From Clavelina lepadiformis (Eukaryota; Chordata; Ascidiacea; Aplousobranchia; Clavelinidae): DNA of 64,000 bases. A program made the position numbers and the translations under genes. The stretch covers positions 8,973,856-9,037,855 of the forward strand of contig NC_135246.1 of assembly GCF_947623445.1 (NCBI RefSeq), in the 5' to 3' direction. Positions within the stretch are counted from its first letter, which is position 1, and each line of letters begins with the position of its first letter. This document shows, in pieces, positions 17,360-58,793 of the stretch. The notes beneath the pieces are model-generated. The model was given only the letters and a program-made list of their open reading frames with translations. It was not told the origin of the DNA and ran no database searches.

Positions 17360-18287
17360 TTTATTTTCTGTAACCTCTTATCTTAGCTTAGCTCCTTTCC
17401 ATTAAGCCTTCAAAGCCTCGTGTAAAAGTACAACATACCCAGATAATGCAGAATATACCATATAGATTAGTTTCAATGTTACCCTGTCCTATCTAAATGA
17501 AACGTTAGCAACAGATTTAAGAAAACTATTGACCAAATACAAACTCTTCTGGATATCATGTTTTGTCACTCAGCAAACTGCTTGTCTTAAGGCCCTGACC
17601 CTGGAGGCGACAATACCATATTTAAATTTAAAAGATTTTTAACAATTCACACGACCAATCAGTTATGATGGGTTTTCACATTTAGCTTTTTATCGTACGC
17701 TAGCTTGTAATACTGAGCATTAATTGTGAAAATAAATAAATTTTTAACATGTCTTTATGAACTTGCTCTTCTACAATTGGTAACCCTTTTGTTTGTAATA
17801 TAAATCATGACATAAAATTTAAATTTGTTATACTCTGTATGTGTATCTTAGCCTTTGACATGCAATGTTGAAAGACCATAGGCCTTCTATACTTTGGACC
17901 CCCATGAACTGTAACTGTAAGTATCATGTATTGAGAAATTAATACATCATAACTTCTTTGCTATATCATCATAACTTTTACCCATTCACACCTTCCTGTG
18001 ATAGTGCCAAAGTAAAACAAACTCAAAATATCTTTCTCACAAACTTGTATACTCTCAGTCTCAAGTTACTATTTAACCTTGGTTTAATAACAAAATGATG
18101 ATTTGAGTTTTGAATAAATTTTTGTTGAATTTGTAAGATGCAGGGTGTGTATACATACATATGAGATAAATCAAAATTAAATGATTTTAAAATAAATTGG
18201 TTATGTAGCTTGGTCACCAAGTTTCAAAAAGATGGTAATCAAGTAGGACCGTCAACTTATTGAGAATGTCATAAATTTTGAGAAACA
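17360..18287. other. upstream region of IPPK
   Basis: It probably holds the promoter and 5' UTR of the kinase gene that starts at 18288. No TATA box at a convincing distance and no upstream exon is recognised. Confidence 0.45.
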
Positions 18288-20002
18288 ATGAATGATGAAT
18301 TGGAATCTTTCAGTGTAACTGACTGGAAATATAAAGCTGAGGGTAACAAACACATTGTCATTTGTGATGGCAAAGGAAAGGTACTTCGATTGGTAAAGCT
18401 GTCTGGTCCTCTACCAGAGCAAGAATCCCATTCATTACAATCACGTGATGGCTATCCTGCCAAGTCTCCTTCATTGTTTATAACAGAGCATGGAAGCACA
18501 GAAAATAAGGATGAGTTGGACTTTATGGAGCATGTTGTTCTTCCATTAATGAATAATTGTGATGCATGTCACATTCCCAAATATGTGCAATTGTCAAAGT
18601 TGTTTTATGAGGAGATGAGGATCAGAATTGATAAGGATAGACCTGAGCATAGGAAGCATAAATCTTTGGATTGTAATGCTCCAGGCCTTCTAATGCATGA
18701 CCACTGCTTCATTCCATTCTCAAAACAGTATCAGTCTTTATTTGCAAATGGTTTATCATCTAGATCTGATTTGGTCACTGTAGAAATCAAGCCGAAGAGG
18801 GGATATATGGCAACAGATGCTGCTATGACTGAAGCAAAATTTTCGAAACACAAAGTTTGTCAGTATTGTCGTACTCAGATATACCGAGTGGTCCATGGAC
18901 AGCGTTTTAAGAAGTGTTCATTTTACTGTCCATTAGATTTATTTTCTGGTGTGGAAGAATGTATGAATTTGGCACTAAAGGAACTGTTTCGCACACCTCA
19001 AAATAACTTCAGAATCTTTCGCAATGGCAAACTAGAATTCTCTCAGGATATCATTGATGCAAGTCGTGAAACATGCAATATTACACCAGATCATTTGCTG
19101 CAACCTTTATTATCTTCTAATTTTTTTGATGACTACAGTTGCGTGAATGATATTATAAATTTACTTATTGATTTGGTTTGTCAATCATTACTTTTACCTA
19201 TTGTTGAAAAACATGACCATGAAACAGTAATTAGCGAACATTGTCTTGGCTTGTATTTAAAAGAACATTTATGTAAACAAACACCTCAAAATGCAATACA
19301 AAGAACAACTAATTGTGCTGGGAAGTTACCTGCTAACTGCATACTAGGCCTTATACATTCACTGCAATTATTAGACCATCATTCCATATCGGATATTAAA
19401 CACCACTATGACACTGTGACATCAAGTGGGCAGTTAAATCTTGACTTGAATGAACATCTTGCATTTGATGCTCCATACTCAAGTGATGAATGGTGCACAT
19501 TTATAAACAGTATTCTCAAAAATGGAAATTCAGCCAGTGACAGGTGGGTAAATATACTGCAGTTTATGAATACTTCATGAACTGTAATAAGTGATTAGTT
19601 GAAAATTAGCCAAGAAATATCAATATAGTCTTTGATATATTTGTCATTCAAGTAGCAAGTACTCGATTGTAACTACAAGTATGTATGTTATTTAGGGATG
19701 AAAAACACAAATCTGCTGATTTACTGCGAAAGTTTTTGGTGGCAAAGTCATTTAGCGACTGCTCCGTCATGATTTCCTTTCAGCGAATTATAGATCCTTC
19801 TGTCAAATCTCTGCAACATTTGAAGAAAACTTTGTCATCGAGGTCTCCAACTGCCCACCTAAACATACTGCAAGATAAAAAAGGGCAAAATTATATTGTT
19901 TCTGTAGCTGTTGTGGATACAGATCCAAAGTTCTCTCAGAAAATTCCAGATTATTACAACCAACATACAAAGATCATGGAATGGTGGGAGAAGATCTTGT
20001 AA
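18288..20002 (+). CDS. IPPK: inositol-pentakisphosphate 2-kinase, 2 exons
   Basis: This kinase phosphorylates the 2-position of inositol pentakisphosphate to make InsP6 (phytate). Exons 18288-19543 and 19696-20002 join in frame (AG + G gives Arg) through a 152-base GT-AG intron, giving 520 aa. Vertebrate IPPK proteins are about 490 aa. Family motifs in order are: EGNK at residues 18-21 near the N-terminus, VEIKPKRGY around 165-173 (nucleotide and substrate site), the Cys pair CQYC at 191-194, and YCPLDLFSG at 213-221. Further on come NNFRIFRNG and the C-terminal block with DCSVMISF and a VSVAVVDTDPK stretch. The start is the first ATG upstream of the EGNK motif. The middle of the protein (about residues 260-400) is divergent. 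The gene is same-strand with FEM1, whose start lies 666 bases downstream, too far to suggest an operon. Confidence 0.95.
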
Positions 20003-30899: not shown

Positions 30900-33800
30900 A
30901 TGTCGTCGAAACCAGTAAGTAGAAGCTAACGCTAACTTCGCCAATAACAGAAACATTTGTCAATGTCTCAAGCCTTTTTATTGTTTATTATATTGTTAAG
31001 ATTTGTTATTTTGCTATAGTTTGTATGTTATGCTAGCAGTAGTGTTAATGCAGTGTTATGAGATTGCCAGCGTTTTACCAGTTACAGGTGTTGTAGCAAA
31101 GATATGTTCTTTGCCAAGTGATATACCTGATTATTTAAGAAAAAGCATCCAAATTCACTTCTGTACTTGTTTCGCTAAATTTTTGTTTTAAAGAAGGAAG
31201 GTCTTTTTTGTGATTGTTTACCAAAACTTTTTTTAAAAATATTTGTGATGAAACAATAAGAAAAGCAATCATAAGGCTATTTTATTCGATATTTTGTTGT
31301 TATATTTGCAACCCAATTATAAATAGAAGATACCGTAAAACCTCTATTTCACCGCCATGGCGTTCTATTTTTCAACTCTTGTTTAAAAGTGGCGTTCTAT
31401 TAGAGGTGACGTTCAATTAGAGGTTGGCGCTCTATTTTACTGCTGCTTATTGTAACGTGATACTGCATTGTTACTACCGGTATGTTGGTTGGTATCTTTT
31501 AAATGGCTGCTTTAACTGCTAGATTGTGAAAACTTAATCAATTGTATAATTATCAGTAGAGACCTGCTAATACAATTCCGCCGCTAAAAGTGGTGTTCTA
31601 TTAGAGGTGGCGTTCAATTAGAGGTGGCGGTGAAATAGAGGTTTTACGGTAAATAAACTATATACGAGTGTTTGAAAATTCACAAAACCGTTTTTAGACA
31701 AACCTTTTTCCTTAAATTATTCTATCTGTGGCACTTGTAAACATTCACCTTTATTAGGTTGCGCATTAATTGTATCGGCGAATGTGAAATTTATGTCGCT
31801 GTGAATATATGCGAATGAATTTCGTTGTTTAAAAATCTAAGAGCGTTATAATGAACTTTACCAAAGATCATCTTGCTGGCGGATTATACATATAGTTTCT
31901 AATAAACACATAAGCTCTTTAGGTTGTTGAATTAGGAAAATACAGCGGAAGATATGAGTGCACACATCAAAACCTGCTGGTGTAATATAGAAGCAGTAAA
32001 TTCAAGCAATAAAGCATTTTTGTCGCCGTTTCGGTAGAGTAAACTTTCTTCGTCAGTCTTCAAACATTTTTAGTGAATTTATTGGCACGAAGCAAAATTT
32101 ATATCTCAGCGATGTTTGAATTGCATTGTGCAAACGCTTAATGACGTATGATAAAAGAAAACCTGGGAGTATTTTGTGGAGATGAAATTTCGGAGTGTTC
32201 CTCAGAGGTCAGACCATATCATTAAAGAGCTAATTGGGTTCCACCTAAATCCGAAGAAAACAAAATTAACCAAATTAGGATTAAAACATATCGGCCTAAA
32301 TAATACATAATGTACATTAAAAAAGAAACAATTAAGCCTTATACATGTACAATGGAAATTTCTAATAACTTGTAAAAAAAAAATTATGAAGAATAATGTT
32401 ACAAATTACATTACACGTGAAATTACACCCTTTATTATCCACTGCTTTCGCCATGAGTTTATTGTTTACTTATTTAATTTGTTTAGCTATAATGGGACAT
32501 GAGAAAAAGTGGGGAGACCATTTGTCAAGACTTTATTGGCTTACTCCAGAAATAGAAAGTGAAACTTGACAAAACCAAAACGGTGTTGGCAGTCTTTCAC
32601 CCAACAAGAAACCGAAATGTCAGTTCGAAGCTAGTTAGCAACGAAAAGGCGGTCAAGTCCCTCTGTCTAGGACTCTAGGTTGATCCTAAATACCTTGCAT
32701 GGGGTAATCTTGTAAAGACCGCTCATGTGTCGTTCAGCTGCTGATACAATGAGTAAATAGGTAAAAAATTTACATCATCGGTCTGTAATGTTAAGACAAC
32801 TAACGGACTTACGCTGGAGCGCTGTAAAGGCTGCTACATTACGCATAGCAGTTTTAGTCCTAGTCTACTACATCACCGAGTACACACATCCATCAAATCG
32901 AATCTGTCGTAAACGGTGTCTTGCGATACTGTCACGAGAATATCTTTACGCACTTGTTTTAAGAAGCACTGCATTTTAATGTTATATAATCCAATTGTTA
33001 AGGCACTAGTTTGGGTTGTAGTTTGTTGTTGTGTAGTAATATTTTATCGTTGTAGCACTTGTGACCGTTATCGTTTTTATCGTTTTTAGGAAATTGTAGT
33101 TCTATATACACGTGCACGTTTTTCTTTGTTCCCTACAACTCTTCCCCGAAGCATGTCACGCTACCCGCGAATCCTTTTTCCTCGTTGATTGATGGTGGTG
33201 AATGGTACGATAGTTTGGTGACCAATAGTTGGTTCAGTTACGTTTTAACTTTGTAGTGAAAAGATGGTTGTTTTTACCTAAGAAAATGCAATTAAAAGTT
33301 AATGAGACAAAAGAGCTAATTGACTAGCTGTCAAGCGGGAAGTTTCATGATTCAGTTTCATGATTCAGTTTTTCATGATTCAGTTTCATGATCGGCGCCA
33401 ACTCCTATCCCGCCAAACTTTTGCTGCCAAGGATATCCTGATTATACGGCTGAACCGGCGTTGGATGTTTCTGCTTAGCTCTGTACAAATAGGGAGTGAC
33501 AAAATGTCTTTTGTGAGTGTGGTGTGAAGGAGCAGACTGCAGACCATTTCTCACGTTTCATTTTTCCTCACGGAATACATCATATGTGCGAATTTTGGGC
33601 GACAGCAAAACCCAGTGACTAATCGACTTCCGCCCTGACATTTAGTCCGGGACCCGGGTAGTTAATTAACATTAGGTTCACCCGATGACTAGGAGTTACA
33701 GATGAAAGTAATCTTGAACTATTAGGAATACTATATTAAAACACGGAAAACAGCAATTGGTTATACTTTCTTGTTAATATAAGTATACCCAAATATGGTA

Positions 33801-36800
33801 GTTTTACACCCCTGTAGCTTTACCCAAGAGTATACTTGTTTAAAAATATGATTTTCTAGCAAATGCCAGTTCAATGGAAACATATCATGATCAGCTACAA
33901 TTGGAAAGACTCGAAGAAGTTGGCACATAAGGTGAGTTGTGTCTGTTTTCAAAGTTTAAATATACCGTTTTTATTCGATCATATATATTAGCAGCGCCTT
34001 TTATAATTTTTATCATCATTTTTTGCGGTTTACATTGGGTTAATTTTTTTATCTGGCGTTTATTTTGTTGGCCACACTTTTTCGATAAACCTTGCTTTGT
34101 CTTTTTTCTTCTCTGTACCCCTTTTGTATCGTAGACGTCGTAGACTGCATATAGTATGGAAAAAGAGTATATTGCAGTAGCTTACTATACCGTATATGTT
34201 CCAGTAAAGCTTACTTTCCTATTCATTGAAATACATGTGGCTTACAACCGAGGCCTGCTTACAGTATAGAATAAAGTAAATACTGTATTTTTTATCATTT
34301 TTTTAGTCATCACTTTTTTTTAAGATCAGTGACATGTTATGTGATGCCGGGTACAATGTTTGGATAGACAAGGGTCAGATGAAAGGAGATATTTATGAGA
34401 AAATGGCTCAAGGTGTCGAGAACGCCCACGTGATTCTAATGTTCACGTCTTCTAATTACGAAAAGAGTGAGAATTGTAAAAGTGAGGCCACATATGCGAG
34501 GGACAAAAAGAAAAAAATTATTCCAATCCGTGTTCAAGATGGATATGAACCAAGAGGGAATATTGGTTAGCAAGGAAATTAAAAACTAAAAAACAACTTA
34601 CCAGCAATTATATTTGATAACCATCAAACTGTATTACCAAACTATTCTCTGGTGTATTTAAATTCCAGGTTTGTTGACGGCAGGGCTATTTTACCATGAC
34701 TTCAGCCAAGGAATATTTGATGACAATTTCGATAAACTTCTAAAAGAAATTGGTATAACTTTGATCGATTTATGCTTTGGCATTTCTCTATGTTTAATGT
34801 TTATTCTTTATTTTCTAAATTCTCTGTTTTTAATTTTTTTCGTAATGTTTATTATTTATATCATATACTGAAAACGATATTTTATTTCATTTATTGCACT
34901 ATATTTTCCAGGCTCCATTGATGGCATAGAAGTGACAAGAAAGACGGAAATAAAAAACACTTCTGCTGGTAGCTTTTTGATACTTAATTAACTCTAACAA
35001 CAACATATAACTTTCTTAAATTCATCACATTACCGGATACTCAGCTCGGGTAGAAATAAATATTTTTTCGAAGTTTCAAATCAGTGCATTCGTATTTTAA
35101 CTATATACTTTTACTTGAGAGGAAATTGAGAACTGAATGGGAATTTTACTTGAAAATTGACTGGGCATTGCAAGTGCAATACTTTTACGTGCATTTACAA
35201 GCCAATTTATTTGCATAAAAACCCCACAAAAGTAAAAATATTTACAAGGCTTGACTTGTATGCTATAGCCAATCATATCAGGCCATCAGTTCAACATCAC
35301 ATAAAGATGTGTCACAGAAATATCACATTTCTAACCATTAACAATATGACAGGACTTTTAAGTCACAAAGATACGTCAACAAGAAGACGTGTAAATTCGT
35401 AAAACTCTAAATGTACCACAAGCATTTTAAAAGTACTTTTCAAAACCAACTCTATAGTTTAAAACCCAGCAAACTACGTTTCAAAAGCTATCTGACATAT
35501 AACAATGCAAAACTATGTACAAATGTTTGAATGACATATCCTAGCTAAAGATAATACAACTTTCTTAATTATAAGCACAATTTGTAACTTAATACATCAG
35601 TACATCCACCACATTGCACTTCACGAAAGAGACACAGTGTGATGTGTCAATTAAAAAATCTAATTTCAACTGACATTGAAGGTTTATGCTTTTTGCATAT
35701 ACACTTTAGTCAACAGCCTGCTTCATTTTTACAAGAATCTGCTGATTGTTTCATTTACAGATCACTCTAATGAGATATTCGTGATTGGTGGATTGTTCTG
35801 TGAAAAAAGTGTTGTCAAGTACAACATCAGGACAAAGCAGTGGAGTGACATGCCGGTATGTCTCATGTCTGTAAATTTAAAGTGTTATTTATAACTTTTA
35901 AGGCACAAGTAAATGCCAAAGTAAGTTTGCCTCGACGCAAAATATAGAATGGTTATACGTAATTGGTACTGTATATCCAGAGATGTTTCATCTTAAAGTC
36001 CTTGCAGTGGCCGAAAAAATATGTTTTTGTCTCTCCCCATCAACTGTTAAAAACATAAGCGTTTTAAACCAAAAGGTAGCCTACTTCCCCCACATGAGAT
36101 ACGCAGACGTTATTTTCTGTGTGGGGAAGTGGCCGATTATAGCCTAGCTTGCAGGCGGTAGCCTCTGATAGTCTGATGTAAAATTCTTTTTAGAAAGATC
36201 AATTCCTGTAAAAGAAGTTGTATGAATTTAAAATTTAGTCACCACTCTTCAGAGTCTTTGATATTGAGGTTACCAGCAATTTCTTAAACTATAGCCATAG
36301 TGTGATGAGAAAATGTTTCTATACTTTTAACGCAACTTTTAAGTCAAACAAATTGATATGTACATATATCTGCATGGAACTTCATCAGGTTATACTTCAG
36401 CGAGGGAAAAATGTCAACTTCAGTTGCTGATTTCTTAGATAAAATAACGTGTCTTCTGGCAGAATACAATCATAGTTCGAAGATCTCCTTCTGCTGTGAA
36501 GTACAATCAACAAATTTTGTTGATGGGTGGTTGGGATGGTGTCACTGCCTTTAATTCAGTAGACGTGCTCTTGAACTTCAAAGATAAGACATCAAAGTGG
36601 GAAAGTGACTTGCCTTCAATGGGAGAAAAGCGGCAATCATTGGCATCAGCGTTATTGAACGGTAATCTAAGTCATAATAGAACGTTTTGATATGTTGTTA
36701 AAATGTGTCTCTCGCGATTTTTCCACAGGTTTTTTGGTTTGAGTTGTTTGTCAGTGGTTATTTTAGTTATTAGACCGAAAAAAACTTTGTACGACTTCAA

Positions 36801-39758
36801 CAAATCAATGATTATTTTTGATCGTAAATTATCATTCTACTAAATACGAGAACGATTTAGTTAGTTTAATCATTTTAAATATAAGTTCAAAACCTAAATT
36901 TAAATGAAGTCGCTTTAACGTCGATTATGGCATAGTGTTTTCTTTTTATTGTTTGCAAATCGCTGGGTGATATTTTTGCTTATTCATAAGAGGCAAGTTG
37001 TAAAATACGCTACATTGCCGAACTTAATTCTTTTCGGCTACGTCCTCAAACTCATGGCGAGATAATTTAATATTTAAACGAATATTTGTACCGAAAACCC
37101 ATGCATTCTTTTCAAAACTCGAAACCTTCGAGACTGTTTTTTACAACGGTCGGTTCAACAAAAATGTCACATAAAACGGTATAGAGCGATATTTTTGCCC
37201 AGTTTTACAAGTGCAACAATAACCAACTGGTGTGATTTTCGTAAAGACTATCGGTTATAGTAAAATTAGAGAAGCCTGTGCAAGTATACGGTACAGTAAC
37301 TCAATAATTATTGAGATTAATTATATTATAATTAGTTTCTTAATAAAATAAGCCAAAGCGAAGCATTGTTACAAAAAAGAATGAAGAAATTAATGCTTAT
37401 CGACAAGAGTTTTTGATTTGAATCTTTGTATAATTACCTTTAGCGTTATTTCTGCTTTAAAGTCTGTTCATTGTGTAATTGTATCTTTTCATGCTTTTAA
37501 TAAAAGAAGTCATATAATATCTAAATTTCTTGGCTACAAAGCAGCAAGATTAACGAACGCAAAGTTTTATGTTTTTATCATAGGGAATGTTTATTGTACT
37601 GGTGGGTGGAATGGCAAGCGCCTGTCATCTTGTGAGTGTTACAACTCTAGAGCGAGAAGATGGTTTGCAGTAAGCAACATGAATCAAACACGAAGCGAAC
37701 ATGCGTTGGTCAGTGCACGTGGTAAGTTCCAATTATGGTCAATTGCTCGTGGCCATTTTAAAGAACTTTGAATCTTTGAAATGATATTGTTATCATACTT
37801 GTAATAAAGTAAGACCTAGCTCCTAAATAAGTAAGGCCCAAGTGTTATGAGCCTAAACTAATGAAAAACTATTTTAAACCATATAATAGTAATTAACTAA
37901 ACCATCCTTGTCGTCATTAAGCAAGCTCTGACAAAACAAAGAAGCGTCATACTTGCCTGACGACATCATTATAGCCATTCACGGCAGCATGCTTTTGGGA
38001 GGGATAACCACATTTCCAATAATCTGATGTACATAATTAAAATTTTACAGTTTTGGCTAGTAGTATATGTTATTGCTAATAACTACTAACTTATTAGTTA
38101 ACGTTAACTTGTTAGGTACCTTACCTTCATAGCAATGATTTCCAATTGAAGCTATCGTAAATCGGTTGCTTTACAGCAGAAAAACATATAGACTGATGAC
38201 GAAATTTTTCATACAATTGCTGCAAACACGAATTAACAGAGGTTACTTTTTACCAAAAATTTCGTTGGTCGTTGTAGTTTTATGTTCCAATAAATCAAGA
38301 ATCCCAGTTACCGAAAAAGTGTAATGATAAGGAAATTAGAAGCTTCTTTGTGTATGAAAGTTTTGTTTATGTCGTGGTTAGTATTATGGAAAAATGCTTT
38401 CTAGAACACTATTGAAGAACGGAATAGGACACGGGAGAGAATATGCAATAGCTGTCACGTTCGTCTTGCAACTGACCCATTTAAATATTCGATGATTTGC
38501 TTTCAAGGTTTGCTTTTTGCACTTGGAGGATGGGACGATAATGCGAATGCAACAAACACAGCAGAATGTTATAGTGCATGTATAGGGAAGTGGCAATATA
38601 TTCCCCCGATGAATACCTGCAGAACCCAATTGACTGCCGTTGTATTAAACGATGAAATATATGTTATAGGTGAGGCTTGGTGCAAGTATAAGTTTCATTT
38701 AAACTTCACGTTTAAACAAATTTTTAACTTTATGATTTTAAATAAATTAAACCAGGAGGGTTTGGTCTTTCTTCTGTTGAAAAATACAACCTGGACAAAC
38801 AGACTTGGACTGATATTCCAGCCATGAAGGAAAAAAGATGCGGTGCATCAGCGTGTGTAGTTAATGGCCTTATATGGGTGTTTGGCGGGTGAGATATAGC
38901 ATAAACGTTTTGACAAGTTACACAAAATTTATTTACAGGTGTCACGCTCCAGCTACTTATAAAAAGTCCTCAGTGACTAATAATTACTGGAATAAGCTGT
39001 GCACACTGCAGTTTATTTAGTTGAAGAACTGCTGCAATTGATTAGTTTCAGTAAGGCCGATGAATTATTTTTGCACAATATAAATACGTGACATCATCAT
39101 ATGGTAGCCCACCCAACGTAAAAATAACTTTATTGTATATGGGCCAAGTAGCCACATGCAGTTAACTATTGTGTAAGCGAACTGTAATTTTTACTGTATG
39201 AAGAATATTCCTGCGATGCTAGAACCTTGTAGTGTCTTGGTGGAGCATCTGACAATTTTTAACCAGTGCCTCCTGTCTTCTTATGGAAAAATACACAGTC
39301 AACAATTGAGGTCCTCTTACACTTCTGCTCTGCCTGTGTTTTCATTTTCCTTTTGTTGTTATTGGGCAAGCTATAGTCTTTTCCCTTTATTGGCCTTGAA
39401 AGGCTTTTTAACCATTACAGCAGTAGCGAGTTTTAGTGCTTTTTTGGCTTTATTCATATTTTCACTTTATGGTCGGACGGCACTGATCGCTGTCAGGTCT
39501 GGACGGTAGTGCGTACACTAAGCATTTTTAATTGCCTGTAGTAATATTTTCCTTCATTTACATTGTCTGTAAATATAATTTGTGCTAATTTCATAAATTA
39601 GAAAAAATTATTTAATTTTGGATCACTAATCTGTTCAATAATCTTGTAATAGTGCTTTTGCCAAAACAATTGAAGTCTATGATCCGGTCGTCAACAGCTG
39701 GCAAGTGGAGAGCAAAATGGACAAAAAGCGATGGTTCCCTTGCGTCCTTGCTGTGTAA
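30900..39758 (+). CDS. TIR-Kelch fusion protein, 11 exons, complete
   Basis: Exons are 30900-30914, 33860-33931, 34325-34565, 34669-34752, 34912-34968, 35761-35855, 36463-36661, 37584-37721, 38508-38669, 38756-38888 and 39653-39758. They sum to 1302 bases (433 aa); all introns are GT-AG and all phases agree. Residues about 12-138 form a TIR domain: HIMISYNWKDSKKLAHK (box 1 region), GYNVWIDKGQMKGDIY, NAHVILMFTSSNY, SENCKSEATYA, KIIPIRVQDGYEP, and a closing DFSQ...LLKEIG helix. Glu83 in CKSEATYA aligns with the catalytic Glu of NAD-cleaving TIRs such as SARM1. After a short linker (139-156), six Kelch units run from 157 to 433, with Gly-Gly doublets at 166, 210, 261, 307, 355 and 398. The final DKKRWFPCVLAV strand could close the first blade. 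There is no BTB, BACK, death, LRR, signal peptide or membrane segment, so it is predicted cytosolic. The role is unknown: a propeller sensor driving a TIR enzyme or signalling module is plausible but inferred. The five-residue first exon is supported by phase and a good donor but is the least certain part. Confidence 0.9.
31331..31651. mobile_element. MITE with 26-base perfect inverted ends, inside TIR-Kelch intron 1
   Basis: It begins TACCGTAAAACCTCTATTTC and ends with its reverse complement; the inverted match extends over at least 26 bases. Inside each arm are further GGCGTTCTATT and GTTCAATTAGAGGT motifs. The terminal TA may be the target duplication. The element is 321 bases long with no coding capacity. 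Confidence 0.8.
33342..33391. repeat. short tandem repeat, CATGATTCAGTTT unit
   Basis: Three full copies and a partial fourth of a 13-base unit, with small length variation, lie within intron 1 of the TIR-Kelch gene. Confidence 0.85.
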
Positions 39759-53100: not shown

Positions 53101-56100
53101 TAAGAACCAAAAGGCTAGCATGCACGCTACACAAGCCAAAGTAATTTTATGTGTAAATTTATTCCCATATAGTTAATAGGGCATAGTTATATGCTTGTGG
53201 ATAACAGTTCCTTTTTGTCTTTAACAACTGCATTTTGCTCAGAATGTATAAGTTTTCTTCAAGTCGATTTAAAAAACGATCGGAAGAAGAAGTGGCCAAA
53301 GCTGACCAAGAATATCGAATAGGTTAGTTTTCTCGTTGATTGATTGTGTTACCAAGGCATCAATCAGAATCAACAGTTAAATGTGCCAATAGCTGGAGAA
53401 TAATATATTGATATAGTGGAAGATCGTTAACTCAAAGGTAACCGATTTACGGTGAGGTGTCCTACCGATTTGCTCGAGTTTTGACGTACGAGTTTTCCAA
53501 ACTTGGTTAAATTGGCAGATCAAATTTGTAAAAATGATCCTGGGCACTGTGTTGATATTTTCTTAATGCCATTGCTCCAATTAAACTTCTACACCCATTC
53601 ATACACAGGACACTACAGCTTAGACACTTTTTTTGAAATGAGGCGTGATTTTTGTCATAATTTCAAGATAATGTTTATATCTTTAAGTTTATGTTAAGTT
53701 TTGAGTTAATTCTTCTACTGTGTATAATTTTTTTTCGACTTGTCTAGAATAATATTGTATAATCTACCGTATTTACTTGATTTTTTATTGTAAACCACCC
53801 TAGATAGTAAGTCACATTGCATGTGGAAGTGCTAAGAAATTAATGTAAGCCGCTTGTGAAGCTAAAGTAGTCTGCACTGGATGGAACGTACAGTACAATA
53901 AGTCTCTGCAATATACTATTTATTCTCTATTACAATGACAAAGTTTTGTCGACAAATTGTGGCCAACAAAAAGCACCCAATGAAATTTTGGCTAGACAAA
54001 AAAATGTAAGCTACCCTTGCATCTAAATTGTAAAAAACGATGATAAAAATGTACTTGAACTTACACTTGAACATATATTTTGATAAACTTACTTGCTAAA
54101 CTTACTTCGAAATAATTTCAAGCGTGGTAAATTTGAAGCATTTCAGATGCATACCGCTGTACAAATCGCTGAGAAGCTCAAAAACTTCTTCATTTAGTTG
54201 ATCAATTATGAGAAGTTGTTCATGCTTTCACAATTCTGTTTAAGATTTTAATGTATCAAATGTGCAAACCACTGGTCATTAAGTTGACTGCTTTTGTGGA
54301 GAAATTCCTAATTTTAAAAAATGAAAAAAGTTGATCTTGACGCTATTATTTTGTCAGCTGATGAGAAGGCTCGTGAAGCAGAAAGTGTGAGTCGTGATCT
54401 GGAGAGGAAATTAAACCTCAAAGCAAAACCAAAAAAAGAAGAAGTAATTGAACTGCGAATGGCACAGGATAAGGCCGTTGGCTGCCGAAACTTAGCCCTA
54501 GCTAAAAAAGACACTGCAAATTTTAAACAAAAGTATTACATTAGATTTTTATATAAAAACAATATTATGTTTTACATATCGTCATTGCTGATGACTTAAA
54601 ACAGGGATTTTACAGAGCACTGAAAGATAAAAAGACATTAGACTTTGTATTTGGATTCAATATTGAAAATAGAAAATATTATGGAATGTTTGTCTATAAC
54701 TGCAGTCGCCTCATAAGAATGTATGAGAGAGTGGGTCCCCAGATTAATGGAGGAGTGTAAGTTACACTTTTAAATCATAAAACAATCTGTTGGTTTACCT
54801 CAGTTTATTTCGCATTGAATTTAGCTTATAGGTAAATTTTAATTGCTCATTTTATTATTTAACTAAATAATAATTTTGAAAATTATTAGAAACTGTGCTG
54901 GTGTTATTGGAGTTGTAAATATTCCCTACCTTGTACTGGAGCCGACTCACAACAAACAACATTTTGCAGACAATAAGGAGTATAGGCATTTGTTGAAAGC
55001 AATGGGTATAAATGTCGCTACTTGGCACCTTTTTACCAAGTTATTGCTACCTTCTATAAATGATCATTAATGTCGTATATGAAACCAGCATAAATATTTT
55101 TATCATTTAAAGGTGATTTGACTAATATCAAAGTTAATAAATTGACTTTTTAATTATGCTTCAGGTGACCATCTTCAGTGTTACTGGCGTGATAGTAAAG
55201 TTACAGCAAAAGGGGTTCTGGGTTTCTGGGAAAGTTTTGGTTATTTATCTGATGACTGGGGCGATTTGCCTTCAAGTGATCCTAAATATCAAAGGCAGAG
55301 AGCAATGAATGTCGGCAAGGTCATTCAGTGTGGTGAGTCTTGTTTGAACTTAGTTCAATAAAAAGAAATCATTTAACTTAAAAAACATTAAGAAAAGAAA
55401 CAGATAACATACTACTTCTTTTAGCTCTAACATTTAAGATTCCATAAACACTTATTTTTCATGATAAAAATAAAAAAAATTCTCATAGCAAATAAACTCA
55501 ATTTGTATTTATTGTACAGTAGTTGCAGCCTCTAGTGTTCATGAGCATTTAATTTCTTAAATTTTAGCACTATACTTCAGTACGTTTTAGTGATGCTTTT
55601 AACCAATCAAAAAATAAATTTTCTTAATAAATGCTTACTGAGAAGTTGGCCAGTTTTAATTAAAATGATGATAAAACTGAAAGTAACTGCAAAATTTTGA
55701 ACAAGATTCTGTTAATGTTTTAGTATGCATATTGCAGCAAGCTTATTAGCAAACCAAATGTCCTAATAATACAAAGACATTGTAAACTTGAATTTTACAT
55801 TCAGGTTCAAATGTTTTACAGTTCAACTTTTCCTTTTTTTTAGGAAAGCTCTACGATTTCTTCTAAAGTGTTTCCAATCCAAATAGAAACATTGTTAATC
55901 TTTTTGTTTTCAAAATTTTCTTGTAGATGGTTGCCTTAAATGGCGAACTCTTCCATTCCAGGCAGAAATGGTTGGGAAAGAGCCACCTGACAATTGGATC
56001 TGTTCAATGAACCCTGAAAAGAAATACAGTCGCTGTCAATGCCCAGAAGTATTTCCACAGGTTCCTGTTGGCGAATTTGTCAAGGACGTTAAAACAGTTG

Positions 56101-58793
56101 AGCAGAAGAAGGCTGACATAGAAGACAAAATGGAGAAAATGCAAAGAGAGCTGGACAAAGTTTCGGTATGTCAAGTTTCCAATTTTGTACCAAGCTCGGC
56201 AATAGCTGTCCAGTGTCCTCTTAATTTCTTCCATAAATTACTCCATTTTCAGACAACTGTTTGTGTACTTATGAGCTCTTTGATTGTTTTCACTAATAGC
56301 ATTGAACCAAAAAGCATACCTCGAGGTATTACTTTCCGCTGATATTTGGTTGGTTCAGAAAAAATTTATAACATTTAAAATTTAAATAATTTAAAACATA
56401 AATGTAGAGGCTTGCTGTGAAGATGCACTCAGTCCGCCTGAAGTAAAATATTGATATCTATATGGACAATGCACAGAATAATGAAGTAAGACTATTTGAC
56501 GATATTTAGATATCTTTTATTTTGTTTGTGACAGAAATTACAGACAGTGACAAGCAGCAAGGATGCCGTTAAGAAAAACAATTTCTTTCCTCGACGAAAG
56601 TCGCAAAACTACTCATCAGATGAATCGTATGGTGAAGAATTGTCTGATGATGAATCAGTTTGGAAACCGAAACTAAAACATGGAGTCACTCAGGACTCGA
56701 AAATGAGCTCAACCAGCATTGGATACAAAGTAAGAAGATCGTATTTACATATACGATTGTAGATATGTAACATATTCCTTATACCAGAGTGCTTGCTGTA
56801 CTGTCCATACTTCTGATAGAAGTTATTAGTATTGGAAAAATCTTTTGGTTTCATTCCAAAAAATGTTCAGAAATCAGAATCTTATGAGTATCTAAATGTT
56901 GCCAGAACTAAACAAATAACAATTAATTGTGAAGTTTATGTTTAGATTGTGAAGTATATTTTACTCCTGATGATGTAACTCTGGTAGGGGGGTATTTTTG
57001 GTAATATATCATACATTCCTATTTCCATACTTGGTTTTTACTGCATGTTGATGTTAATTTCTCTTAAGCAGAGAAGACCCGTTGATGATCGAAAAGCAGT
57101 TGCTCGGAAATCGGCTTCGTATTCCCCAAGCAAACGACAAAGGGTCTGTCGAGACAGTTTTTAAAAAAATTACTCTCAAAGTGATATATACAAATATTGC
57201 TATTTTCTCCGGCATGTTTTTTTATTTATTATTTATTTATTTGCATGTTTTTAAGTTCTATGTTTTCATACGTCTAAGTCGGATATTGTTGCGTTGCAGA
57301 TGTCCTTTGAGAGTGTTCAGTCAGACAGCGACGATGAAAGGCCGATGAAAGGTATGCAAATGTAATATAAAGCCACTTTTATTTAGAAATATCTTAGTTG
57401 TTTTTTGAATACTGATCCAATATTTGTAATATCTTTAAAGGAAAATGTACTTGCTGTTCTGTTATTAAAGCTGTGATTATTTGTTTATTTAGCGATCTTT
57501 TTTCCATTGCAGCTCTTGTGTTGTGTTAGTTTAATTGATTAACAGCCAGATTTTTTTTCGAAGAAGCTACTGATATAGGTCGAGCAGTTGAGGTTAATAT
57601 CGGTGGGAAATGGCGGCCAGGTCGAATAGTTACTACAAAGGTTGTCAAAAACCAACCGAAAAAATTTAAAGTGAAGTTTGATCAACACATGCAGGTAAGC
57701 ATCTACCTAATCCCTCACGTCATCAGCAGTATGAAGTATTTCAATATGGTCTTAGATCGTATCAATTTTTATCAAGTCCTCTTTTTACCAGGATCGATTC
57801 GACAAATGGTGTGATGAGAATTCCAGCGACCTTCGCTTTGTGTCGAATTCCGATCTTGTTTCCAACGGAGTTGGTTCACCCAGCAAGCCAAAGAGATCAA
57901 GTGCACCGGGTATATATCCGTTAGCATCTTCAGATATGCTCCAACTTTGACAAGAATACCCGGAGAAGTTTAATGTTATATTTCAAAATTTAAACTTTAT
58001 AGAACATGGTTCGTCGTCTCACAGGATAGATGAGAAAACGATGGAGCTTCATGAAAACGCTCTCGGGAAATTAAGGCAAGACAGATAATTATTTATCCTT
58101 ACTACAAGTTTCAACTCACTGACTTTTTTTTGACACAAATAGGACTTGTCTGAGATATTTTCTACCTCCACAATGGCAGATGCCCAAAGAGGAAATCAAC
58201 AACCTCTCACTTAAAGAACTCGTTGACTTTCCTATGGTAAGTCATTGAAATAAAATGCAAATTTGTTAAAGTTATTGTGTCTTCTCTGTTTCAATGCCTT
58301 TCTCTCAATATTTCAGGACGACTTCTTCGATCACTACGAGAAAGGCTTGCGTCGTCTAGTGAGCAATTTTAGGTCGCAGGCCGACCAACAAAGAGCAGCT
58401 GCTGAATCAGCTCGTCAGGAATTAGCCGAATCACAGCAGCTGCTCTTTCAAGTATTAAACAGGCTCGATAAGGTAAGGTGTTGACTTGATTTTTTGGTTC
58501 TTATAAAAGTGCACTTATTTGAAATTTACTTGTTTTCTCATTTCACAAACTTTCGATTTTGTTGAATCAAATGAGATCTTTTTAATGTAAGGTTAACGAC
58601 TAAACCATTTACAAAGAGTGACCTCACAACAAGTTATATCCGTGGTTGCACAATCACACCGTGTTAACCGATTTTTTTAAGTTGTAGCTGTTTTCATGCT
58701 GAATTGATCAATATTTTATTACAGAACACTCCCACCATGACGAACAAGGAGGTCGTTTTATACACGAAAAAATATCTGGAAAACACGACTTGA
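50129..58793 (+). CDS. MORC2: MORC2: GHKL ATPase with CW zinc finger, 22 coding exons
   Basis: MORC2 is a nuclear ATPase; in mammals it compacts chromatin and works with the HUSH complex in silencing. Exons are 50129-50193, 51316-51461, 51608-51710, 51869-52049, 52156-52249, 52798-52912, 53012-53140, 53243-53322, 54358-54532, 54616-54756, 54890-55005, 55165-55332, 55927-56165, 56535-56729, 57072-57143, 57300-57351, 57546-57694, 57792-57909, 58003-58075, 58143-58236, 58317-58472 and 58725-58793. They sum to 2730 bases (909 aa; human about 1030). The GHKL motifs are [10 protein letters not shown] (Asn38), DDGEGM (67-72) and [10 protein letters not shown] (96-105). A charged coiled-coil arm covers about 285-370. 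CW-finger cysteines are C504, C507, C530 and C541 with KWRTLPFQ. A Ser/Asp-rich linker, a chromo-like segment (about 690-765, [14 protein letters not shown]) and a C-terminal coiled coil (836-900) follow. The intron after 58075 has a GC donor. The intron after 52249 must use a poor GTCCGG donor to keep frame. Confidence 0.96.
50800..50964. mobile_element. hAT-type MITE fragment in MORC2 intron 1
   Basis: The right end, read in reverse, is CAGTGGTGGTCAAAGTAAC followed by TTACTCAAGTAGAAGTA. This resembles widespread hAT MITEs with CAGTGGTGG ends and ACTCAAGTA repeats. Three TACTTGAGTA-like units lie in the stretch. The left end and target duplication are not clear. Confidence 0.45.
52570..52625 (-). 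repeat. fragment of hAT family C in a MORC2 intron
   Basis: Reverse complement carries ATTCTAGAATAACGAATCCT and TCTCAAAAG, nearly matching 14808-14852 in the family C element. This second copy confirms dispersal. Confidence 0.6.

Follow-up and report, generated by a model that had tools for sequence, protein, structure and literature searches.

Structure of the gene and domain composition of its product

The window analyzed here, i.e., the whole stretch of 64,000 nucleotides of Clavelina lepadiformis contig NC_135246.1 (forward strand, 8,973,856 to 9,037,855), harbors a gene encoding a TIR domain followed by a Kelch propeller. Splicing of 11 coding exons resulted in a reading frame of 1302 nt without internal stop, which ends with TAA and encodes 433 aa; every intron starts with GT and ends with AG. 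The features are listed with their window positions.

30900..39758, + strand: whole TIR-Kelch gene from start to stop codon, 433 aa; P0001 is 97% identical
30900..30914, + strand: exon 1, 5 codons (15 nt), donor GTAAGT; a short upstream exon is implied in paralogues
33860..33931, + strand: exon 2, start of the TIR domain (TIR_2, 1.3e-20)
34325..34565, + strand: exon 3, TIR core; acceptor 34325 set by P0001 and paralogues
34475..34486, + strand: CxxE motif with Cys80 (34475-34477) and Glu83 (34484-34486), aligned to RPS4 CVRE (weak, E 0.27)
34669..34752, + strand: exon 4, end of the TIR domain (splice sites and Pfam)
34912..34968, + strand: exon 5, linker (splice sites and paralogue alignment)
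35761..35855, + strand: exon 6, first Kelch blade (splice sites and Pfam)
36463..36661, + strand: exon 7, Kelch; loops of the family's exon 7 analyzed by codon
37584..37721, + strand: exon 8, Kelch (splice sites and Pfam)
38508..38669, + strand: exon 9, Kelch; loops of the family's exon 9 analyzed by codon
38756..38888, + strand: exon 10, Kelch; loops of the family's exon 10 analyzed by codon
39653..39758, + strand: exon 11, final Kelch unit with the stop codon (splice sites)

P0001 represents the same gene in another C. lepadiformis entry and comprises 427 aa with 6 differences. For exon 3, an acceptor at 34307, giving 439 aa with six extra residues, was rejected in favor of 34325 because these six residues are missing from P0001 and the aligned paralogues. 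The annotation of P0001 begins at a Met of exon 2, and the 15-nt exon 1 is absent from it. Exon 1 is supported by 7 of 14 paralogue loci, at which an acceptor immediately precedes the codons of (T/S)SSPSK or NSNQDK; at the remaining loci, L033 differs and six gave no match. In annotated paralogue proteins, these residues are preceded by five others, e.g., MASPN, MSSPS, or MALQN. According to a portion of PMC10884593, RNA-seq data exist for C. lepadiformis (ERR10908613). The spliced frame, the GT-AG borders, and the match to P0001 agree with the original prediction of a complete in-frame model of 11 exons and 433 aa.

Three additional features were observed in the window. Intron 1 contains the arms of an inverted repeat at 31297-31357 and 31625-31685 (61 nt, 74% complementary), possibly a small transposon-like element. 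A single open frame at 18282-19577 (+ strand) matches inositol-pentakisphosphate 2-kinase (3.3e-47), and an exon at 55899-56339 (+ strand) encodes a CW-type zinc finger (1.6e-11).

A Pfam search carried out with the 439-aa version of the product identified TIR_2 at residues 14-140 (1.3e-20) and Kelch_1 in six stretches (3.5e-52); the remaining matches were further Kelch-type or TIR-type models. The 12 Pfam families listed included neither BTB, BACK, LRR, death, SAM, or Ig domains nor NB-ARC or NACHT, nor a transmembrane part or death domain of the TLR/MyD88 class. The search thus agrees with the predicted architecture of an N-terminal TIR domain, six Kelch units, and nothing else.

Exons 1-5 (TIR) and exons 6-11 (Kelch) might belong to two adjacent genes that were joined erroneously: the window model was derived from genomic sequence alone, and some annotated relatives, e.g., P0015 and P0017, consist of Kelch only. 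Against this, every junction is in frame with GT-AG borders, 14 further Clavelina proteins are annotated with the TIR-then-Kelch order, and this order occurs in two distinct Kelch lineages. As this order recurs in 14 other proteins, it is above chance, and we consider a misjoined model very improbable.

A family of TIR-Kelch and BTB-Kelch genes in Clavelina

At the exon level, at least 112 genome matches to the TIR part and at least 191 to the Kelch part were found; with the BTB-BACK part of a sister gene as query, there were at least 169. These counts include other TIR and Kelch genes, and they are lower bounds because only the best candidates were scored (150 of 201 for TIR, 140 of 435 for Kelch, and 148 of 324 for BTB-BACK). 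Among proteins, 15 of 105 matches to the whole product combined TIR_2 with Kelch, all of them from C. lepadiformis, and the same 15 were recovered among the best 120 of 1054 matches of a profile search. A search with the TIR part returned 15 proteins, 11 with both domains and four with TIR only. Given these many relatives in genome and protein searches, a reading of the gene as a lone oddity was dropped.

None of the protein matches listed (whole product, profile, TIR part) showed the TIR-Kelch pair in another species; since search candidates were picked by shared words, absence of the pair outside Clavelina is unproven. No description of a TIR-Kelch protein was found in the mostly open-access literature, judged by titles and the starts of abstracts, and the TIR survey PMC7075850 mentions neither Kelch nor propeller in its main text. 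The original statement that no characterized animal protein with this pair was known agreed with the protein matches and papers listed, but the combination is common within the C. lepadiformis genome. The component parts are of known kinds; their combination and the hypervariable Kelch face described below appear to be new.

A 1.85-Mb array is located on C5 (22.48-24.33 Mb), where at least 46 Kelch anchors could be placed, 43 via exon 9 and three via exon 10. The nearest upstream N-terminus was a TIR exon for 19 anchors, a BTB exon for 26, and none for one. Assignments were made to the nearest upstream exon on the same strand within 30 kb and describe neighborhoods, not finished gene models; one of the 19 TIR anchors was recognized solely through a match of the exon 4 type. 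TIR and BTB genes are interleaved in this array. Nine of its 35 BTB matches lack a Kelch anchor, and part of the array members may be pseudogenes. The window gene lies outside the array, on C7 at 9.0 Mb, and in the tree it branches outside eight sampled array-type members (set supported at 100/98, fork below the window gene at 86/90). It is a lone diverged family member; the diversification reported below was seen in the array family, not in the window gene.

Further TIR genes were encountered. A second TIR array (G000 C4:0.70-3.42 Mb, minus strand, e.g., L033 and L035) comprises at least 29 TIR-exon matches with 49-57% identity to the window TIR. The one partner examined for this array, P0076, carries TIR_2 and a C-terminal part with weak LRR-type matches alone (E 0.025 to NLRP3). 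In the Clavelina protein P0107, TIR_2 occurs three times in tandem. TIR-bearing open frames of some 1000 codons are present at L004 (C4:21.40 Mb) and at similar places on C3, C4, and C7; the one frame examined, L004, shows by eye LRRs, a membrane stretch, and TIR, i.e., the Toll-like receptor type.

Conservation of the TIR part

The CKSE sequence of the window TIR aligned to CVRE of RPS4 in a weak match (E 0.27), with Glu83 as the putative counterpart of the active-site glutamate. Cys80 and Glu83 were invariant across 14 aligned rows. Furthermore, CxxE was kept in all 15 matched TIR exons from 17 array loci (L020 and L036 were left out); 13 of the 15 were distinct, and they fell into two subtypes, both with CxxE. 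These exons gave a pN/pS of 0.36 with a pS of 0.307 and a highest column entropy of at most 1.46 bits. The TIR part is under purifying selection.

According to parts of PMC9153377, plant TIR NADases require TIR-TIR proximity and a conserved glutamate matching Glu88 of RPS4, and the cysteine beside this glutamate matters for nucleic-acid cleavage and cNMP synthesis. Because CxxE is kept and plant TIR NADases have these needs, we favor clustering on a ligand followed by an NAD or nucleotide signal, and the TIR domain is presumably enzymatically active.

Hypervariability of the ligand face

Among 73 related propellers, all 29 of the 283 alignment columns with an entropy above 2.3 bits were located in BC or DA loops, and the rest of the propeller framework was almost fixed. 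Loops were assigned by our own reading of the blade motif, i.e., as positions after the blade GG or around the conserved Arg. The best natural PDB match was KLHL12 (3.5e-45). In Kelch-substrate structures, the pocket is framed by BC loops and floored by DA loops, and for KLHL12 nine residues are named as DVL1 contacts in the parts of PMC7333892 and PMC6720452 considered here. The KLHL12 numbering can be regarded as checked because all nine residue letters match the printed chain. Seven of the nine, namely F289, Y321, L371, Y434, I439, F481, and Y528, fell on columns ranked 3, 23, 9, 11, 20, 5, and 1, i.e., all within ranks 1-23 of 283; Y512 corresponds to the column ranked 64, a conserved one, and L533 lies opposite a gap. 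The contact columns had a mean entropy of 2.79 bits versus 0.74 bits, and none of 20000 random draws of eight columns reached this mean.

The ratio of loop entropy to that of the rest was 3.76 in 64 propellers of the TIR/BTB-Kelch family (nine of the 73 were left out as too short). It was 1.32 in a mixed set of 19 other Kelch proteins, including two from Clavelina and five from Ciona, and 1.40 in 12 non-redundant of 18 intronless BTB-Kelch genes of the same genome, which were read on both strands (one strand: five genes, ratio 1.24); these control sets are more diverged overall than the TIR/BTB-Kelch family. In 24 closer control pairs, loop pN was 0.076 versus 0.054 elsewhere. Both forms of the family showed the pattern: the 29 loop columns averaged 2.12 bits in 10 TIR members and 2.58 bits in 35 BTB members, and outside the 41 columns above 1.5 bits the values were 0.29 and 0.35 bits, respectively. 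As judged from these alignments, the scaffold of the array family is fixed and only its ligand face varies. For the window gene, one second copy, P0001, was compared; all 6 differences were in the Kelch part and by eye none was at the 29 variable columns.

In Ciona intestinalis, the differences among the BTB-Kelch proteins P0114, P0115, P0118, P0121, and P0127 are likewise concentrated in the ligand-face loops. The loop difference was 0.378 versus 0.128 elsewhere, a ratio of 2.95; the same measure was 4.09 for a Clavelina TIR set (10) and 4.15 for a BTB set (12). The loop bias may be older than Clavelina, five Ciona sequences being few.

Mixed N-termini and shared propeller blocks

In a propeller tree of 46 rows (seven of 53 were left out as too short), the TIR and BTB labels need eight changes, or seven if the window gene is left out. 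Support is low for most branches, and the well-supported ones force at least two label changes. The TIR protein P0010 and the BTB protein P0034 pair at 100/99. Their agreement at variable sites was 0.86, 1.0, and 1.0 in exons 8-10 and 0.20 and 0.17 in exons 6 and 7; the record of P0010 ends before exon 11. Comparison of 2016 propeller pairs revealed 47 exon-sized blocks with at least 90% identity at variable sites, compared with 0-4 in five column shuffles. By our own rule, 33 pairs were mosaics, four of them between TIR and BTB genes. On this evidence, propeller blocks are common to TIR and BTB genes. Swap events were not counted because gene conversion can mimic swaps.

A single origin of the TIR-Kelch combination was not supported. 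P0062 and P0069 stand apart from the window gene and the array (100/98), and their propellers group with five Ciona BTB-Kelch propellers (96/94); therefore, the fusion with TIR involves at least two Kelch lineages. A TIR exon of P0062 is located at C4:20.91 Mb (L025), and P0069 has by eye a hydrophobic, membrane-like N-terminus.

TIR-Kelch proteins might be decoys or regulators of their BTB-Kelch sisters, sharing ligands with them, lacking BTB, and using TIR as a non-enzymatic assembly module. Such a role would suit the interleaved TIR and BTB genes with propeller blocks in common, and a portion of PMC9153377 describes TIRs without the glutamate or without NADase activity. The invariance of Cys80 and Glu83 and the retention of CxxE in every matched array TIR exon argue against it, and we regard this role as improbable.

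Codon-level analysis of the ligand face

For exons 9 and 10, loop classes were set beforehand from the Kelch topology, and codons were counted at 16 of 20 loci; L069, L072, L073, and L079 were left out, their exon 10 being missed by the pattern, though readable. Ligand-face codons showed a pN of 0.194 and a pS of 0.160, framework codons a pN of 0.033 and a pS of 0.089, and intron 9 a divergence of 0.067. Thus, ligand-face pN was 2.87-fold that of intron 9 (bootstrap over loci 2.23-4.02) and 2.18-fold the framework pS (1.71-2.81), and it exceeded the pair's own intron 9 in 114 of 120 pairs. An illustrative pair is L070 and L078, in which intron 9 is identical over 83 aligned bases and the loops differ by 11 replacement and three silent changes.

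In exon 7 (20 loci), ligand-face pN was 0.267 and pS 0.296, with a framework pS of 0.130. Ligand-face pN was 2.05-fold the framework pS (1.59-2.78) and 1.98-fold the divergence of the end of intron 6 (0.135; 1.29-3.58). The result reverses against the first 100 bases of intron 7 (0.445), for which the ratio was 0.60 (0.53-0.68); the first 300 bases of intron 10 (0.411) were also above loop replacement change, and both introns are poorly alignable and look partly unrelated between copies. Our yardsticks were the framework silent sites, the end of intron 6, and intron 9; introns 7 and 10 and the TIR pS were counted against the result: ligand-face pN (0.19-0.27) is not above the TIR exon pS (0.307), intron 10, or intron 7. 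Pooled loop pN/pS was about 1 (0.99) after removal of identical sequences (18 of 20, 14 of 19, and 12 of 15 kept); silent change in the loops was also raised, and the pooled ratio gives no evidence of an omega above 1. In the 19 loop codons with the most variation, the differences at positions 1, 2, and 3 were 0.55, 0.56, and 0.39, a contrast that is supportive and partly circular because these codons were chosen by amino-acid variety. The other loop codons were near the framework in silent change (pS 0.150 versus 0.114).

The same data bear on relaxed constraint combined with gene conversion. A redundant array would then have a homogenized framework and homogenized short introns, with change-tolerant loops retaining older variation, and would constitute no repertoire. 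A pooled loop pN/pS near 1, TIR silent change and introns 7 and 10 equal to or above loop replacement change, and block sharing as a sign of exchange are what one would expect. Relaxation would not lead one to expect more difference at positions 1 and 2 of the most variable codons, themselves selected by amino-acid entropy, nor near-framework silent change in the remaining loop codons, the coincidence of variable columns with KLHL12 pocket contacts, or the small loop bias of the other Kelch genes in this genome (ratio 1.40). We therefore consider relaxed constraint unlikely, although it is the strongest of the alternatives. Gene conversion may nevertheless have kept change in the framework and intron 9 low. 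In our reading, pocket residues were replaced repeatedly on a scaffold that exchange kept uniform; positive selection on the ligand-face codons is likely, not proven.

Discussion

The data are best explained by a recognition family in which a Kelch scaffold carries a diversified ligand face and either a TIR or a BTB output, with the window gene as one member; we assign this reading a probability of about 0.55. The window protein is probably cytosolic. Its six-bladed propeller would bind a partner via the face formed by the BC and DA loops, most likely a protein segment as in KLHL12 and KLHL20, and the TIR domain would provide the output. The scaffold has been multiplied into the tandem array of C. 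lepadiformis, where ligand-face residues diversified and blades were partly exchanged between genes while the framework stayed fixed, and the propeller carries either of two N-termini, TIR or BTB-BACK. The TIR output would most likely be NAD cleavage or a nucleotide signal after clustering on the ligand. BTB-BACK most likely recruits CUL3, leading to ubiquitination of the ligand; that the sisters act via CUL3 is taken from knowledge of the KLHL family, and the BTB forms presumably bind CUL3. The loops presumably bind non-self or other fast-changing ligands, and the lone window gene would work like the array members. Hence, the predicted division into a propeller sensor and a TIR effector gained support at the family level, from the hypervariable ligand face and the conserved TIR with CxxE, but not from diversification of the window gene itself.

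The varied propellers could instead serve allorecognition or self-recognition, distinguishing colonies or gametes rather than infection. Ascidian allorecognition genes are under selection, as reported for Botryllus fester in a portion of PMC3549757, and diversified families suit either use; extracellular or membrane parts, though, were not found in the window gene product by Pfam. We judge such a function to be improbable.

Extending the recognition-family reading, we tentatively propose, at slightly less than even odds, that tunicates possess a germline repertoire of intracellular Kelch-propeller receptors in which selection and the exchange of blades diversify the ligand face; their output would be either CUL3-dependent ubiquitination or, via TIR, an NAD or nucleotide signal and cell death. 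Plant resistance genes would have an animal counterpart in this repertoire, with an architecture unlike NLRs and TLRs. If so, a large set of intracellular sensors is made from Kelch propellers in a chordate whose group is sister to the vertebrates, and one sensor type is coupled to both TIR signaling and ubiquitination. The repertoire would also suggest why kelch-like genes have expanded in tunicates, as the loop bias is similar in a small set from Ciona. The variable loop residues would then predict the places of ligand binding, and TIR and BTB genes that have propeller blocks in common would make it possible to ask whether the same ligand feeds two responses.

Comparison with known systems

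The KLHL adaptors (KLHL12, KLHL20, KEAP1; BTB-BACK-Kelch, CUL3) share with the window gene the six-bladed propeller and its BC/DA-loop ligand face; in contrast, the window gene has TIR in place of BTB-BACK, and variation in its array family is confined to the ligand face. SARM1 and plant TIR-NLRs such as RPS4 have the TIR domain in common with it, the CxxE motif being aligned to RPS4, whereas the window gene lacks ARM/SAM, NB-ARC, and LRR, has a propeller instead, and its NADase activity is putative. Toll-like receptors and MyD88 likewise share TIR, and the LRR, transmembrane, and death domains are missing from the window gene. TIR group 18 of early chordates comprises lancelet and ascidian TIRs of varied architectures, as described in part of PMC7075850.

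By analogy, the repeat domains of fungal NLRs and the nematode F-box adapter families are the nearest precedents found. We know of no TIR form among nematode F-box adapters, and their folds differ from those described here. These families are large; their substrate-binding domain is under positive selection and their F-box under purifying selection (Thomas 2006, cited in a portion of PMC12062965). HET-E/HNWD NLRs of Podospora (WD40, ANK, or TPR) have, according to parts of PMC4986451, positively selected repeats with variable binding-face sites and combinatorial N-termini; in comparison, the Clavelina family is from an animal, uses Kelch rather than WD40 repeats, contains no NACHT/NOD, and carries TIR or BTB-BACK at the N-terminus.
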